Shown: positions 33,748 to 42,541 of the stretch, one piece after another
How positions within the stretch are numbered: the first letter of the stretch is position 1
Layout: each line of letters starts with the position of its first letter
Source of the DNA: a bacterium
GTDB lineage: Bacteria; Myxococcota_A; Bradymonadia; UBA7976; UBA1532
Assembly (NCBI GenBank): GCA_030426085.1
Contig: JAUHYW010000073.1
Location: 1-56,647 of the forward strand
DNA length: 56,647 nucleotides
Direction of reading: 5' to 3'
The notes under the pieces: model-generated
The model's database searches: none
What the model was told of the DNA's origin: nothing
The model's input: only the letters and a program-made list of their open reading frames with translations
Position numbers and translations under genes: made by a program

Positions 33748-35433
33748 ATGATGGCCTCGATGAAATCTCAAGCCCGCGCCGATCGGCTCACCCTGCTCGT
33801 CGCCCACATCAAGGAGATGCTCGCTGGCGAGGACTCGAGCGCGCTGTTCGACGGGCTCCTCATCGGGGTCGTCGAGCACAGCGCCGCCGAGCGGGGGTTC
33901 GTCCTGTTCAGCGAGAGCGGTCGCCCGACCATCCGCGCCGCGCGCGCGCTCGACCAGGCGGTCGCGCGGTCCGAGCCCTTTCGCCGGGTGCGCCGCATCG
34001 CCGACTACGTGCTGCGCAGCGGTGAGCCATTCCTGACCGCCTCGCTGAAGGACGACTCCCGCTTCCGCGAAGACGAGGCGCACTTCGAGCCCGATCGGGC
34101 GGTGATGGTCCTGCCGCTGCGCACCAGCGAGCGGCCGGTCGGCGTGATCTATGTCGACCGGGCGAGCGCGCAAGGGGGCTTCGACACCATCGATCGCGCG
34201 GTGCTCCAGGACATGGCCGACATCGCCGGCATCGCGATAGAGGCCCGATACCGGGTGCGCCAGCTCCGGGCCAATCGGGACGAGCTGCGGCTGGCGAACA
34301 TGACGCTGGAGCGCATGGCCAACTCGCTCCAGGAGGACGTCGCCGCGAAGTCGGTCGAGCTGTCGCGGTTCGAGCGGGATCTGGACTCCAAGAACCGCGC
34401 GCTGCGGTCGACCTACACGTTCAAGAACATCGTCGGGCGCAGCCCGCAGATGCACCGGGTCTTCGACATCCTCAACCAGGTGATGGACTACCCGGTCCCG
34501 GTCCTGATCACCGGGGAGAGCGGCACTGGCAAAGAGCTGATCGCCCGGGCCCTGCATCACGGCGGCGCCCGGACCGACGAGCCGTTCATGGCCATCAACT
34601 GCGCCGCCATCCCCGAGAACCTGCTGGAGAGCGAGCTCTTCGGCTACAAGCGAGGCGCCTTCACCGGCGCCAACGCCGCCAAGGAAGGCCTGTTCATCGC
34701 CGCCCGCAAAGGCACGGTCTTCCTCGACGAGTTGGGCGAGATGCCGCTCAACATCCAGGCCAAGCTCCTGCGTGTGCTCCAGGAGCGTGAGGTCCGCCCG
34801 ATCGGGGGGCGCGACGCCGAGCCCGTCGAGGCCCGGATCATCGCGGCGACCAACCGGGATCTGAAGGCCGAGGTCGGCGGCGGCCGCTTCCGCGAAGACC
34901 TCTACTATCGCCTCAACGTGGTCGAGGTCCGGGTCCCGCCCTTGCGCGAGCGCGTCGAAGACATCCCCGCCCTCGCCCGCCACTTTCTGCGGCGGCTCAC
35001 CGAGGACGTGGGGCTGCCGCTCAAGCGGCTGAGCGAAGACGCGCTTCAACGCCTCGTCCGGGCGAGCTGGCCGGGCAACGTTCGGCAGTTGGAGAACGCG
35101 ATCAAGTCCAGCGCTCTGCTCTCGCGCGGCACCGTGATCGGATCCGAGGAGTTGCGGCTGCCCGACGAGTCCATCGCGCCGCCCCGGGCCGAGCCCGAAG
35201 AGGCGCCTGCATACGAAGCGCCGCGCCCCCTCGACGCCACCACGACCCTGCCCGCGGGCCGCATCCGCAACAAGGCCGAGTGGGAGGCCCACGAACGAGA
35301 GCGCATCCTCGCGGCCCTCGTCCGCTGTGGCTGGAACAAGACCAGGGCGGCCAAGGAGCTGAAGGTCTCCCGCCGCAATCTCTACCGCAAGATCGAGCGC
35401 TATGGCATCGAGGGGTCGAACGGCGATGGCTGA
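33748..35433 (+). CDS. sigma-54-dependent activator with GAF domain
   Basis: 561 aa; starts at 33748, 33751 or 33760 are all possible (MMASMK), and no strong ribosome site separates them. Residues ~20-170 form a GAF domain (RGFVLFSESGRPTIRAARAL; MVLPLRTSERPVGVIYVDR). A coiled stretch links to the AAA+ domain with Walker A GESGTGKE and the sigma-54 contact loop GAFTGA (303-308), and the core ends with NVRQLENAI. A Fis-type HTH (NKTRAAKELKVSRRNLYRKI) is at the C-terminus. It lacks a receiver domain, so small-molecule or cyclic-nucleotide sensing by GAF is likely. It may act on the sigma-54 site at 38238, 3 kb away; this is inference. The Fis-like HTH would bind enhancer-like sites. Confidence 0.95.
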   Translation: MMASMKSQARADRLTLLVAHIKEMLAGEDSSALFDGLLIGVVEHSAAERGFVLFSESGRPTIRAARALDQAVARSEPFRRVRRIADYVLRSGEPFLTASLKDDSRFREDEAHFEPDRAVMVLPLRTSERPVGVIYVDRASAQGGFDTIDRAVLQDMADIAGIAIEARYRVRQLRANRDELRLANMTLERMANSLQEDVAAKSVELSRFERDLDSKNRALRSTYTFKNIVGRSPQMHRVFDILNQVMDYPVPVLITGESGTGKELIARALHHGGARTDEPFMAINCAAIPENLLESELFGYKRGAFTGANAAKEGLFIAARKGTVFLDELGEMPLNIQAKLLRVLQEREVRPIGGRDAEPVEARIIAATNRDLKAEVGGGRFREDLYYRLNVVEVRVPPLRERVEDIPALARHFLRRLTEDVGLPLKRLSEDALQRLVRASWPGNVRQLENAIKSSALLSRGTVIGSEELRLPDESIAPPRAEPEEAPAYEAPRPLDATTTLPAGRIRNKAEWEAHERERILAALVRCGWNKTRAAKELKVSRRNLYRKIERYGIEGSNGDG

Positions 35434-37060: not shown

Positions 37061-37972
37061 TCAGTCGGCCGGCTCGGGGGCCGGCCGAGGGGTCTGCTCT
37101 TTGTCCCGCAGCGCCTTCACGACCCCCAGGGCGCCGACGATGATGAAGGGGATCGACAGATACTGGCCCATCGTCAGCAAGGACTCCCGGGCCTCGAGCG
37201 ACTGGAACGCCTTGAAGAACTCGACGAGGAAGCGACCGGTGAAATAGACCCCGATGAAGAGGAAGCCCAGCAGGCCCAGCGGCCGCTTCTCGCCGTAATA
37301 CCGATCGACGAAGAACAACATCAGGAACACCGTGGTCCCCAGCGCCGCCTCGTAGAGCTGGCTCGGGTGACGCCACGGGACCTGCGCGAAGCTGACGCAC
37401 TGCTCCTGAATGAAGCCGCAGACATCGGCCGACACCTGCCCGCATTGCTCGGGGCACGGGACGAGCTGATCCCGATCGTGCCGGGGGAACTTCACCTTGA
37501 ACGGCCCGTCGCTGACCCGCCCCACGATCTCGGAGTTCATGAAGTTGCCGAACCGGATCAACGTGGCGCCCACGGCCGCCGACATCGAGAAGCGGTCGAG
37601 CACTTCTCGGATCGGCATCTTCTCGGTCCGGGCGAAGTAGACGAGCACCGCGATGAGGGCGATCGTCGAGCCGTGACTGGCGAGCCCGCCTTCCCAGAAG
37701 TACAGAATGCGGATGGGATCCTTGAGGTAGCGCTCCGGCTCGTAGAAGAGGCAGTGGCCGAGCCGGGCCCCGGCGATGACGGCGATGACCCCCATCGTGA
37801 GGAAGCGATCGGCCTGCTTGCGGGTGTGCCCGCCGCGCAGCATCTGCCACTGCCAGACGTAGAAGCCGCCCATCAAGGTGAGGGCATACAGTACACCGTA
37901 GTAGCGGATCCCCCGACCACCGAGGAAGTCGGGCAGATGAAAGAGCACCGGATCGATGTTCCAGACGAACAC
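37061..37972 (-). CDS. lgt: prolipoprotein diacylglyceryl transferase
   Basis: 303 aa from a GTG at 37972, with GGAGG four bases before it. This inner-membrane enzyme moves diacylglycerol from phosphatidylglycerol to the lipobox Cys of prolipoproteins. Seven hydrophobic helices; key motifs are GGLASHGSTIA, LIRFGNFMNSEIVGR and HPSQLYEA. The middle periplasmic loop is longer than in E. coli and Cys-rich (LVPCPEQCGQVSADVCGFIQ). It serves the six lipoproteins predicted in the window. No lsp or lnt gene is in view. Confidence 0.95.
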   Translation of the reverse strand: MFVWNIDPVLFHLPDFLGGRGIRYYGVLYALTLMGGFYVWQWQMLRGGHTRKQADRFLTMGVIAVIAGARLGHCLFYEPERYLKDPIRILYFWEGGLASHGSTIALIAVLVYFARTEKMPIREVLDRFSMSAAVGATLIRFGNFMNSEIVGRVSDGPFKVKFPRHDRDQLVPCPEQCGQVSADVCGFIQEQCVSFAQVPWRHPSQLYEAALGTTVFLMLFFVDRYYGEKRPLGLLGFLFIGVYFTGRFLVEFFKAFQSLEARESLLTMGQYLSIPFIIVGALGVVKALRDKEQTPRPAPEPAD

Positions 37973-38329
37973 GGGGCCTCCAGCCGTGGATTGAGGCGCG
38001 CAGCATGTCACAGGTCGGGGGCAAAAGGGAGATCGCCGAGCCACGGGTGAGCCGACGGCGACCCCCGATCGGTGGCGCGCGGGCCTGGGGAGAGGCCGCC
38101 GGGCGGTCCGCGGCCCGCCGGATGAGGTCGGCCGACCCGGGGTCGCCGGACCCCACCCCGGGGCCTGCGACGCGGCGTGTATTTCCGGGAATACCCGCCG
38201 TCGTGGGGAAAAGGCCCTTCCATCGGCGGCGGATTGCTGGCATGTTCGATGCTAGGCATGGGAGAGCAGTGCGCGGTCGCTACGCGGGAGTTCCGCGGCC
38301 GCTAATCTTGAATCGCGGGGGAGGACGCC
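37973..38329. other. gene-free region before cytochrome gene
   Basis: 357 bp without a convincing gene; short frames here have shadow-like composition. It holds a sigma-54 promoter-like site at 38238 and a short GGGAATACCC palindrome near 38184-38195. Confidence 0.6.
38238..38253 (+). promoter_or_regulatory. sigma-54 (-24/-12) promoter
   Basis: TGGCATGTTCGATGCT matches TGGCACGN4TTGCW at 10 of its 12 specified positions, with the GG and GC elements at the right spacing. It lies about 75 bp before the cytochrome start codon. A GAF/sigma-54 activator gene is 3 kb away. Confidence 0.6.
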
Positions 38330-41300
38330 ATGGTCCATCGCCAGTTTGCGCGGGGAGTACGACTGTCAGTCGGGCTCTCTGCGCTGCTCTTCATCGGCGG
38401 ATGCTCTGAAGAGCCGGTAGAATTCGAAGAAGACGTCGGCGTACCAGACGCCGCACCACCTGATGTCTACCTGCCCGACGCAGAGCCGGTCGGCAGCCAG
38501 GGATGTGAGGAGTACAGCTTCCGCGGCACGGTGTGGAACTGCGACCAGCTCGACCGCTGCAACGAGACGGACTTCACGTACCGTCTCGCGTGCTGCGAGT
38601 GCGACCCCCGGTACTGCCAGGAGGATCCGCAGAACCCGTGCCCCGGCGGCGAGGGTGAGGGCGAAGGCGAGGGTGAGGGCGAAGGTGAGGGCGAGCCGCC
38701 GCCGCAGAACGCCGAGAGCTGCATGGCCTGCCACAACGGCGCCAACCAGCGCAACGACTACAGCGGCGCCGGCATCGGCAACCCCCACCCCTTCCCCGGG
38801 GCGGCCTCGATCCCCTGCACCGGCTGCCACGGCGGCAACGGCCAGGGCGCGGGCAAGGGCGGCAGCCACGTGGCGCCGCCGCCGGAGATCGGCGACCGGA
38901 ACTATCAGGCCAACAACGACAAGGCCTTCTTCAACCGGGTGACCCTCGCCGGCATCGACCGGCTCGGGCCCGACCCCTACCCCGGCCAGAACGGCGCCCA
39001 GCACAGCAACCTGGACTACCTCGAGTTCGTCAACCCCGGCGATCTGCGGGTCGTCTCGGCCGGCCGCGGCTGCGGCCAGCAGGGTTGCCACTTCGACGAG
39101 CACGCCCAGTGGGTGCCCCGGTCGGTCCTCGCGACCACCACCGGCCTCTTCTCGGCCACCCGCTTCCTGGTGGGTGTCGACAACCGGATCCCCGAGTACC
39201 GGGGTGACCTCGACAGCAGCGACACCCTGGCGGACTCCTCGCCGCGGGCGGTCGACAACCCGGGCTACAACGCGGCCAACGCCTCGATGGGTGAGGTCGG
39301 TCGGCTCGTCGAGCAGCCCGAGCTCGCGCAGTTCAACGGCCCGATGCGGGACAACGCGAACTACATCGCCGCCAACCTGAACAACCACATCATCGACGCC
39401 AACCTCGATCCCCAGCGGCCCAACCGGGTCCGGGCCGCCAGCCCGCTCGAGACGCTGATCGACGAGCAGGTCAACATCACCTGCGGCAACTGCCACCTGT
39501 GGAGCGCCGGCGACAACAACCGCTACGCCGACTTCCGCTCCTCGGGCTGCACCGCCTGCCACATGGAGTACAGCTACGACGGCCGTCACCGGGGCTACGA
39601 CCCGAACGTGCCCCGGGACGAGCCGGCCGATCCCGATCAGATCGCCGCTGGCGAGCGGGCCCACGTCGAGGCCCACCAGATCCGGAACGTGGCCAAGATC
39701 CTGCCCAACGGCGCCTTCGTGCGCGGCATCAGCGACCGGGCCTGCGTCGGCTGCCACCAGGGCAGCAACCGGACGGTCCTGCAGTTCTGGGGCATCCGCC
39801 TCGACCAGAACCAGGATCTGGTCAACGAGTTCCAGTACCCGGCCAACCCGGACGACTTCGAGAACACGGCCCAGGATCAGCGGCTGTACAACCCGGCGGT
39901 GCAGAACAACACCTTCAACGGGCGCAACGCCGACCAGTACATCCTGATCGAGGACTACGACGCCGACGGCCGCGACGATACGCCGCCCGACCTGCACTAC
40001 GAGGCCGGCCTGGGCTGCATCGACTGCCACGGCAGCCGTGACCTGCACGGCGGCACCGAGGGCGATCCGTCGTCCGGCGAGATCCGCAGCCGCCAGGATC
40101 AGGCGACCGCGGTTCAGTGCGAGTCGTGCCACGGCGAGGTGGGCTCGTTCGCCGCCACCGGCCCCTGCACCACCTACACCGGCGATCAGGCCGAGTGTGT
40201 GCTCGATTCGCGGGGCAACCCGCTGCGGCACGTGGTCAAGGACGCCGGCGGCCACTACTGGCTGACCAGCCGGGTCACCGGGCAGCGCCACTACGTGCCC
40301 CAGACCCGGGACGTCACGATCCTCTCGCAGCGGACCCACCCGATCACGTCGAACGCCCTCTACAGCCCGAAGGCGTCGTACGCGATGGGCCGGACCGACG
40401 GCAACCAGCAGACCGGGACCGGGCCGATCCAGACCGACCCGAACCTGTACTCCGACAACTTCAGCCACCTCGATGTCATGGACTGCGCGTCGTGTCACTC
40501 GTCGTGGACGAACAACTGCATCGGCTGTCACCTGGCGAACGAGTACAACGCCAACCCGGCGGACTACTTCTTCAGCAACCTCACCGGTGAGCGCATCCTG
40601 CTCGACGAGACGGCTGCCGACTTCGTCTACCAGAGCCCGGTCATGCAGTACCTCGGGGTCAACAGCCGGGGGATGATCACCAAGATCTCCCCGGCCGAGA
40701 AGGTCTTCTGGCGCTTCGTGGACTTCCAGGGCAACACGTCGGACGTCTTCGCGTTCTCCGACCGGCTGGGTGAAGGCAACAACCCGGCCCTCGGCGGTCG
40801 CAACGACTTCCCGGCCCTGAGCATGAACCAGATGATGCCGCACTCGATCCGGGCCGCCGTCACCGGCGAGTTCGAGGGTCCGACCTACTGCGTCGGCTGC
40901 CACGTCAACGTCGACATGATCAACAACGCGGATGTCATCGCGCAGTACGAGGCGTTCGTCGCCGCGTACGACAACCAGGACTTCGCGAACATCGACTTCA
41001 ACGTGCTGCAGACCGAGATCGGCCTCAACACTGGCAACCAGAACAACACGCCGTTCTTCGTCCGCATGATGTCGGGCCTGGGCACCGGGTTGTTCCTGTT
41101 CGACCAGTTCGGCTGCCCGGTCAACCCGCTCGACGCGAACGCGGACCGCCAGAACTGCAACAACGCGGCGCCGGCCGACACGTTCGCCGACCAGGTGAAC
41201 AACGTGGCCTACGATCTGGACCGCATCGTCGAGTTCAACGGTATCCCGAACTCGTCGAACGCTCACCCGCGGCTCCGGCTGCAGGGTGCGCAGCGCAGCG

Positions 41301-41452
41301 GGGCGACCAACGGGACGATGGCCGGTCCGCTCGGCTCCACGTCGCTGCAGCGGCTGATCGGGGCGGACGACATCAACAACGCCCTCATCCTGGACTCGTA
41401 CATCGACGCCGACGGGAACGCCCAGGGCGACGCGGCCGAATACATCCAGTAG
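38330..41452 (+). CDS. multihaem c-type cytochrome lipoprotein, ~11 haems
   Basis: 1040 aa. Signal peptide with lipobox FIGGCSEE; GGGGGAGGACG precedes the ATG. An acidic linker of nine Gly-Glu repeats (GEGEGEGEGE, ~107-124) connects to the haem part. I count ten CXXCH sites (CMACH, CTGCH, CGNCH, CTACH, CVGCH, CIDCH, CESCH, CASCH, CIGCH, CVGCH) plus one CX4CH (CGQQGCH). Some distal His ligands are likely elsewhere. The sites are spread over residues ~125-870; the last ~170 residues have none. Large lipidated multihaem cytochromes carry electrons across or outside the outer membrane. The paired CXXCH signature and size fit extracellular electron transfer or a surface reductase; substrate unknown. 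Confidence 0.9.
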   Translation: MVHRQFARGVRLSVGLSALLFIGGCSEEPVEFEEDVGVPDAAPPDVYLPDAEPVGSQGCEEYSFRGTVWNCDQLDRCNETDFTYRLACCECDPRYCQEDPQNPCPGGEGEGEGEGEGEGEGEPPPQNAESCMACHNGANQRNDYSGAGIGNPHPFPGAASIPCTGCHGGNGQGAGKGGSHVAPPPEIGDRNYQANNDKAFFNRVTLAGIDRLGPDPYPGQNGAQHSNLDYLEFVNPGDLRVVSAGRGCGQQGCHFDEHAQWVPRSVLATTTGLFSATRFLVGVDNRIPEYRGDLDSSDTLADSSPRAVDNPGYNAANASMGEVGRLVEQPELAQFNGPMRDNANYIAANLNNHIIDANLDPQRPNRVRAASPLETLIDEQVNITCGNCHLWSAGDNNRYADFRSSGCTACHMEYSYDGRHRGYDPNVPRDEPADPDQIAAGERAHVEAHQIRNVAKILPNGAFVRGISDRACVGCHQGSNRTVLQFWGIRLDQNQDLVNEFQYPANPDDFENTAQDQRLYNPAVQNNTFNGRNADQYILIEDYDADGRDDTPPDLHYEAGLGCIDCHGSRDLHGGTEGDPSSGEIRSRQDQATAVQCESCHGEVGSFAATGPCTTYTGDQAECVLDSRGNPLRHVVKDAGGHYWLTSRVTGQRHYVPQTRDVTILSQRTHPITSNALYSPKASYAMGRTDGNQQTGTGPIQTDPNLYSDNFSHLDVMDCASCHSSWTNNCIGCHLANEYNANPADYFFSNLTGERILLDETAADFVYQSPVMQYLGVNSRGMITKISPAEKVFWRFVDFQGNTSDVFAFSDRLGEGNNPALGGRNDFPALSMNQMMPHSIRAAVTGEFEGPTYCVGCHVNVDMINNADVIAQYEAFVAAYDNQDFANIDFNVLQTEIGLNTGNQNNTPFFVRMMSGLGTGLFLFDQFGCPVNPLDANADRQNCNNAAPADTFADQVNNVAYDLDRIVEFNGIPNSSNAHPRLRLQGAQRSGATNGTMAGPLGSTSLQRLIGADDINNALILDSYIDADGNAQGDAAEYIQ
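38648..38697 (+). repeat. GGCGAG/GGTGAG low-complexity repeat coding Gly-Glu linker
   Basis: Hexamer units (GGTGAG, GGCGAA, GGCGAG) in register give the alternating Gly-Glu linker. The DNA is close enough to perfect for slippage in steps of two residues. Confidence 0.85.
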
Positions 41453-41463
41453 TCGGTCGACCC

Positions 41464-41495
41464 GATCGCGGTCCGGTGAAAGCCGGGCCGCGATC
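41464..41495 (+). terminator. two-part hairpin after cytochrome gene
   Basis: GATCGCGG...CCGCGATC forms an 8-bp outer stem, with CCGG...CCGG inside. No T-tract. It may stop or attenuate read-through into the companion lipoprotein 33 bp downstream, or protect the mRNA end. Confidence 0.5.
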
Positions 41496-41527
41496 CCCTC
41501 CCCATCCGGGCCGTTCGTGAGGTTGCA

Positions 41528-42541
41528 ATGACCCTCCGATCGCTCAGCCCCCTCTCCTACGTCATCACCGCAGTCATCGGCTTGCCCGGTTGTGACCAGG
41601 ATCCCATCTACATCGGGCCCGAGATGCTGGCCCCCGACCAGTTCGTCGATCGGCCCGGCGCGGGCGGATCGGGCGGGACCGGGGGCGAGATACCCGAGCC
41701 CCCGGTCGATCAGGGGCCAGGCGGATCGGGTGGAGCCGGTGGGCAGGGCGGGGGCATGGTCGAGCCGATGCCGGATCCCGCGCTGTTCAACGAGACCGTC
41801 GTGACGGTGCTCTATGGCGCGTGCGGGGGTCCGGCGTGCCATGTCAGCCCGTCTCTGGGTCCGAACCCTGACGACGCGCTCTTCCGACTGGTGGACGCGG
41901 CGCCCGACACGCTCGATCCCGATCAGCAGACGCTGAACTTCCACGAGGTGCTGAGCTTCGTATCGTTCGACGCGCCGACGGACAGCCCGCTGCTGGTCTG
42001 GCACCCTCAGGGTCACCAGGGCTACATCATCCCCCAGAGCGCGACCTACAACCGCATCCTCGAGTGGATCGAGGACGCGATCGCCCCGCCCGAGCCGGAG
42101 GGTCCCGGCGGTATGGGGGGTATGGGTGGCATGGGCGGCATGGGCGGCATGGGCGGTGGGCAGGTGCCGTGCGAAGGGATCCCGCCACCCGGCTCACCCG
42201 GCGGCCGCTCCCAGGGCTATCGGGATGCCTTCGAGGCCGAGGTCGATGGCGAGAGCATCAACGACATGCTCGTCGAGTCGTGCGGCGAGCAGGGTGCGTG
42301 CCACGGGACCCAGGGTGCGGCGGGCGGCTACTGGCTGCTGGCCGATCTCGAAGACCCGTGCGCGATCCAGTGGAACTATCTGGTGAGCCAGTGGTTCATC
42401 GACCCGCTCCTGCCCGACGCGTCGCTGTTGTTGAGCAAGCCCCGCGAGCGCAATCACGGGGGCGCGGTGGTCTTCCGCGGCCGCGACGATGCCCGGCACG
42501 TACGCCTGCTGCTGTGGATCGAAAACGAGTTCATCCGCTGA
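41528..42541 (+). CDS. Gly-rich lipoprotein with two CXnCH motifs
   Basis: 337 aa. The signal lipobox is GLPGCDQD. Gly-rich linkers (GAGGSGGTGGEIPEP; GGMGGMGGMGGMGG at ~195) separate two modules. Each module has a Cys-rich haem-like motif: CGGPACH (CX4CH) and CGEQGACH (CX5CH). These are longer than the classical CXXCH, but similar CX4CH sites occur in myxobacterial proteins. Whether they bind haem is uncertain. It follows the multihaem cytochrome and probably acts with it as an extracellular partner. Converges on rny, with two hairpins in the gap. Confidence 0.78.
   Translation: MTLRSLSPLSYVITAVIGLPGCDQDPIYIGPEMLAPDQFVDRPGAGGSGGTGGEIPEPPVDQGPGGSGGAGGQGGGMVEPMPDPALFNETVVTVLYGACGGPACHVSPSLGPNPDDALFRLVDAAPDTLDPDQQTLNFHEVLSFVSFDAPTDSPLLVWHPQGHQGYIIPQSATYNRILEWIEDAIAPPEPEGPGGMGGMGGMGGMGGMGGGQVPCEGIPPPGSPGGRSQGYRDAFEAEVDGESINDMLVESCGEQGACHGTQGAAGGYWLLADLEDPCAIQWNYLVSQWFIDPLLPDASLLLSKPRERNHGGAVVFRGRDDARHVRLLLWIENEFIR

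Follow-up and report, generated by a model that had tools for sequence, protein, structure and literature searches.

A predicted sigma-54 promoter and an upstream dyad before an 11-haem lipoprotein gene of an uncultured myxococcote

How is the gene for a large multihaem lipoprotein switched on in an uncultured member of the Myxococcota, and which other genes might share its control? The gene lies in a stretch of 56,647 nucleotides (contig JAUHYW010000073.1 of assembly GCA_030426085.1), which we refer to as the window. A preliminary description of this DNA had placed a sigma-54 promoter directly before the gene and an activator gene further upstream, and had suggested regulated surface electron transfer. 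The features that bear on this question are as follows.

33748..35433, forward strand: GAF-type sigma-54 activator with GAF, sigma-54 activation and Fis-type HTH domains; candidate activator for the promoter at 38238
37061..37963, reverse strand: lgt, prolipoprotein diacylglyceryl transferase, divergent neighbour
38124..38139, no strand assigned: imperfect second dyad (10/12), overlapping the first by 1 base
38139..38154, no strand assigned: perfect dyad GGGGTC-N4-GACCCC, predicted activator-binding site from its recurrence and pairing statistics
38238..38253, forward strand: sigma-54 -24/-12 promoter element TGGCATGTTCGATGCT, 9/11 bases, exact GG-N10-GC spacing
38264..38264, forward strand: predicted transcript start, from the spacing to the -12 element only
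38330..41452, forward strand: 11-haem lipoprotein (10 CXXCH and 1 CX4CH), 1040 aa, lipobox Cys at residue 25
41528..42541, forward strand: second gene, a lipoprotein with two CX4-5CH motifs, 75 nt after the cytochrome gene

Judged from sequence, it is likely that positions 38238-38253 are a working sigma-54 promoter for the genes at 38330-42541, opened by a dyad-bound activator and part of a cell-surface programme. Sigma-54 RNA polymerase would bind 38238-38253 and stay closed until a sigma-54 activator on the 38139-38154 dyad, about 117 bp upstream, opened the promoter with ATP, and the cytochrome would belong to a regulated programme at the cell surface. Sequence statistics support the promoter, the dyad, the pairing of the two and their conservation; the binding of the proteins, the activation and a product that serves as an outer-membrane electron carrier are what we infer.

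The promoter element and its conservation

The sigma-54 consensus used for scoring was TGGCAC-N5-TTGCW. The element TGGCATGTTCGATGCT lies 76 nt upstream of the start of the 11-haem lipoprotein gene and is the sole match to TGGCAYN5WTGCW within the whole window, and the strong -24/-12 match noted earlier was indeed borne out, with 9 of 11 bases and exact spacing. This strict pattern, which was modelled on the window's own site, has 22 matches in the 10.1-Mb genome compared to 3 in a reversed control, suggesting that most of the matches in the genome, if not each one, are likely real. The genome also encodes rpoN (PF04552, E 1.1e-65). Because of the spacing to the -12 element, the transcript is expected to start near 38264. 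No sigma-70-like site was found, which we counted in favour of a sigma-54 promoter, and the 5' leaders of the window and of the related genome G001 folded no better than shuffled sequences.

The element is conserved before orthologous genes. A sigma-54 site of at least 9/11 was found upstream of 10 of the 11 orthologous loci in a close Myxococcota group (L060-L063, L065, L066, L068, L069, L077, L133 and L134, with the paralogue L064 left out), compared to 1/11 in the reversed control. The exception is L134 in G056, where the best site scores 7/11 at most, and in G001 the site stands at the same distance from the gene start as in the window. Among remoter Myxococcota-type loci, the best site scores 8/11 in L070, L071, L073 and L135 and 9/11 in L127, L130 and L138. 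A wider scan returned 198 relatives, of which 80, mostly labelled planctomycete, were kept, and the upstream scan covered 79 of these loci (L067 has no upstream DNA); the reversed control over all 79 reached a score of 9 in 8 cases. A good site is mostly absent upstream of the Planctomycetota homologues, with L080 carrying an 11/11 site without a dyad. Sigma-54-like sites at three gammaproteobacterial loci (L072, L074 and L075) were dropped because they appear inside coding repeats. Since a site precedes 10 of the 11 orthologous loci and a conserved dyad lies at the position expected of an enhancer, sigma-54 control of the cytochrome gene is well supported by these comparisons.

The gene that follows the cytochrome gene is also retained, with a homologue after the cytochrome in 8 of the 11 close orthologous loci. 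It had no Pfam match. Its two CX4-5CH motifs, putative haem sites, are kept in 9 of 10 copies of the gene; in the tenth (C112) one of them is CXXCH.

A 16-bp dyad paired with sigma-54 sites

The dyad GGGGTC-N4-GACCCC at 38139-38154 is a new element of this analysis. Its centre stands some 117 bp before the predicted transcript start, within the 80-150 bp where the preliminary description had proposed looking for an activator-binding site, and it recurs before orthologues. By statistical association it is a candidate upstream activator-binding site, while the link from this dyad to the activator encoded at 33748 is weak. Another palindrome, GTATTTCCGGGAATAC (38179-38194), was dropped as an enhancer because it is absent from G001.

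Perfect dyads number 13 in the window's own genome, compared to 0 in the reversed control, and 93 copies were found across 57 genomes (in 31 of them), compared to 16 in the control. Upstream of cytochrome genes, in the 160 bp before the sigma-54 site, a dyad of at least 10/12 was found in 11 of the 14 regions tested (the window, ten close-group loci, L070, L073 and L135). The dyad is just 9/12 in L066, L068 and L133, the last no better than chance (0.18). The distance from dyad to -24 element is variable, from 47 to 158 bp. Near both the end of contig C45 and the start of contig C171 in G000, the window's own genome, two dyads lie 552 bp apart, and these pairs may be one region assembled twice.

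The dyad had been spotted by eye in the upstream regions of cytochrome genes and, as the strict sigma-54 pattern was modelled on the window's site, the weight of the argument rests on tests at other genes. Pairing was analysed for 63 of the 93 perfect dyads, from 13 genomes, and 25 of the 63 have a sigma-54 match of at least 9/11 at 30-170 bp. Counted as oriented windows, such a site is present in 25/126 compared to 9/820 control windows (p 3e-16), and at a threshold of at least 10/11 in 11/126 compared to 1/820. When the window's own copy was removed, 24 of 62 dyads were still paired. A dyad of at least 10/12 lies no more than 220 bp upstream of 5 of the 22 strict sigma-54 sites in the own genome, a count taken without a control. 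The combined pattern of dyad and sigma-54 site gave 29 matches in 22 genomes compared to 5 in the control, several of them unlike promoters.

The genes that follow the paired sites are mostly predicted lipoprotein or secreted-protein genes. A lipoprotein-like open reading frame lies downstream of 14 of the 25 paired promoters, compared to 215 of 4960 positions drawn at random from those loci. Together with the pairing, this excess suggests that the promoter is a member of a predicted sigma-54 enhancer regulon, most of whose products are surface proteins, and that the cytochrome would be part of a cell-surface programme. Among the products of genes near the pairs are VanY-like lipoproteins (of three, one scores over the Pfam cut-off and two have SLH domains), TSP3-repeat lipoproteins, trypsin-like peptidases, a C10 peptidase, an Flp pilin and a sigma-54 activator that we call FHA-like; a sigma-70-family (ECF-like) factor lies near a pair whose dyad is 10/12, and several of the products had no Pfam match. 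Genes of the ornithine decarboxylase, deoxyhypusine synthase and arginase families lie 3' of one pair (L153, 6067-9278), and an arrangement like it occurs in G001 at L246.

We offer, tentatively, a wider reading, in which one sigma-54 activator acting through GGGGTC-N4-GACCCC would run a surface programme across several uncultured Myxococcota families. The programme would comprise the 11-haem lipoprotein with anchored peptidases, VanY-like lipoproteins, Flp pilin and polyamine synthesis, and surface electron transfer would then belong to contact behaviour, for instance attachment or predation, and not to ordinary respiration. What began as a single motif match becomes a testable regulon with an enhancer, a spacing and a list of targets.

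Which protein reads the dyad

Could the dyad serve something other than this promoter? It might be the site of a different regulator, or serve the divergent lgt, and stand before the promoter by coincidence. Such a reading would account for the remaining 38 of the 63 perfect dyads, which have no strong sigma-54 match nearby, and an 8/11 sigma-54-like site (CGGCTCACCCGTGGCT, reverse strand) does lie 84 bp from the 38139-38154 dyad on its lgt side, though it may be a chance match. We consider this explanation improbable, given that dyads are strongly paired with sigma-54 sites and that an 11/12 dyad stands before the cytochrome gene of L070 and L073 too, two loci with no lgt detected nearby.

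If the dyad is the enhancer of a sigma-54 promoter, the question becomes which activator binds it. The preliminary description had named the GAF-type protein encoded at 33748-35433, which would bind upstream and switch the promoter on. That protein was confirmed as a genuine sigma-54 activator, matching PF00158 and HTH_8 and with GAFTGA visible in its translation, so its sigma-54 activation and Fis-type HTH domains are intact. Its gene stands in a block of miaB, activator, epimerase and a small gene, followed in some cases by lgt, and keeps synteny with the cytochrome gene in G001 and G003 as in the window. In Desulfovibrio, sigma-54 activators often adjoin their target genes (PMC4641369), which made the earlier choice a reasonable one. 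Across 13 genomes of the family, at least two perfect dyads occur in 8 of the 10 with the activator and in 0 of the 3 without it, a weak correlation (p 0.035); G004, G005 and G011, as well as the f7 genomes, run counter to it. G005 has an orthologue of the activator (46% identity) and yet neither a cytochrome match nor a perfect dyad, whereas no full-length orthologue was found in G004 and G011, which nevertheless carry three dyad/sigma-54 promoters; these three are incomplete MAGs (81-89%). Four further dyad-bearing genomes (G048, G053, G054 and G056) have no clear full-length orthologue (the best are 37-38% identical or partial), the activator gene of G006 lies about 96 kb from the cytochrome, and there is no dyad with up to two mismatches near 33.7 kb. 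While the regulation by sigma-54 held up, the assignment of the 33748 protein as the regulator was not established; sequence ties it weakly to the promoter, and we regard it as a doubtful candidate.

We lean slightly towards another of the more than 50 sigma-54 activators of the genome as the reader of the dyad, either the FHA-like protein of contig C40, a response-regulator type seen in G012, or one of five types common to G000, G004, G006 and G009 by reciprocal best hits, a comparison that covered part of each genome's activators. Two dyads and a 10/11 sigma-54 site lie upstream of the FHA-like activator gene (L155, 7901-9442), an arrangement in which self-regulation is possible; the name is descriptive, as no FHA model matched the protein. 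None of the relatives searched has a clear orthologue of it (46% at best), whereas the dyad is widespread. The response-regulator-type gene adjoins a dyad promoter in G012 and has orthologues 62-70% identical in six further genomes, but its association with dyads is no better than that of the GAF type (p 0.10).

The cytochrome family and comparison with known systems

The count of about 11 haems given in the preliminary description proved right, since the single CX4CH, the third haem motif (residues 248-254), aligns with CXXCH in 18 of 33 aligned members. It is CX4CH in the other 15, all Myxococcota-type sequences, and 11 haem motifs are present in 33/33. A further eleven histidines are kept in 30 or more of the 33, and a twelfth in 28; the eleven would be enough for bis-histidine ligation. 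Pfam gave c3, c7 and c554-type matches. No PDB relative was found by profile, and a predicted model (mean pLDDT 66, pTM 0.64) matched no PDB fold at E 0.001.

A match to the cytochrome was found in 30 of the 95 genomes searched, the own genome included, with more than 700 bits in 14, and the family is distributed among Myxococcota, Planctomycetota and some Gammaproteobacteria. The analysis points to an 11-haem lipoprotein family with no description among the top-ranked literature matches, which is not proof that there is none. G000 carries four more near-full-length copies (C112, C65, C114 and C79), 56-74% identical and without the dyad/sigma-54 pair: in C112 a 9/11 site stands without a good dyad, and C65 and C79 have dyads of 10/12 but no good site.

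Is the product a surface conduit? Its lipobox, its 11 haem motifs and the 11 conserved free histidines make a role in surface electron transfer plausible. Of the regulated surface electron transfer proposed at the outset, the sigma-54 part is well supported and the surface role plausible. Alternatively, the cytochrome could face inwards and act as a redox enzyme or a store of electrons, for instance in oxyanion reduction. Its best NCBIfam match is ExtM (NF040943), from a selenite/tellurite reduction operon, scoring 65.7 bits where the cut-off is 800; no other open reading frame in the window has at least two CXXCH motifs, and no porin was identified in the part of the genome searched for porins. 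The lipobox and the pairing of the dyad with predicted lipoprotein genes speak against this alternative, as do the many planctomycete homologues that adjoin a flavin/4Fe-4S oxidoreductase and a 20-23-haem cytochrome, and we hold it to be unlikely. These neighbours are nearly all at planctomycete-type loci: an oxidoreductase-type gene lies at 26 of 59 loci and a haem-rich gene at 30 of 59, with 20-23 CXXCH in the four haem-rich proteins examined (Pfam was run on L079 and L108). The planctomycete arrangement, seen for example at L079 (2845-12679), suggests a new electron-transfer operon.

Compared with known systems, the cytochrome resembles MtrC/UndA-type proteins in being a lipoprotein with about 10-11 haems and predicted electron transfer; UndA itself has 11 haems. 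It differs in that its MtrC-MtrF domain match (20.2 bits) falls below the cut-off of 30, in the lack of a PDB relative by profile, and in that no porin partner was identified. Its likeness to ExtM is partial, confined to residues 552-804 and far below the cut-off.

The promoter resembles those with NtrC-, NifA- and NorR-type enhancers in its GG-N10-GC element, a dyad about 117 bp upstream, an rpoN gene and many activators. It differs from them in the dyad itself and in that the cognate activator is only a candidate. To our knowledge, GGGGTC-N4-GACCCC matches no enhancer described so far. Its letters were not found in PMC4641369, and none of the top-ranked literature matches was evidently about it. 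In PMC3162934, sigma-54 is described as governing the bacterial exterior, with lipoproteins and other functions of the exterior enriched among its targets, and the word "cytochrome" is absent from the main text. The predicted regulon is similar to this picture in its lipoprotein-rich targets, and differs from it in being a specific, dyad-linked regulon of uncultured Myxococcota that includes a multihaem cytochrome.
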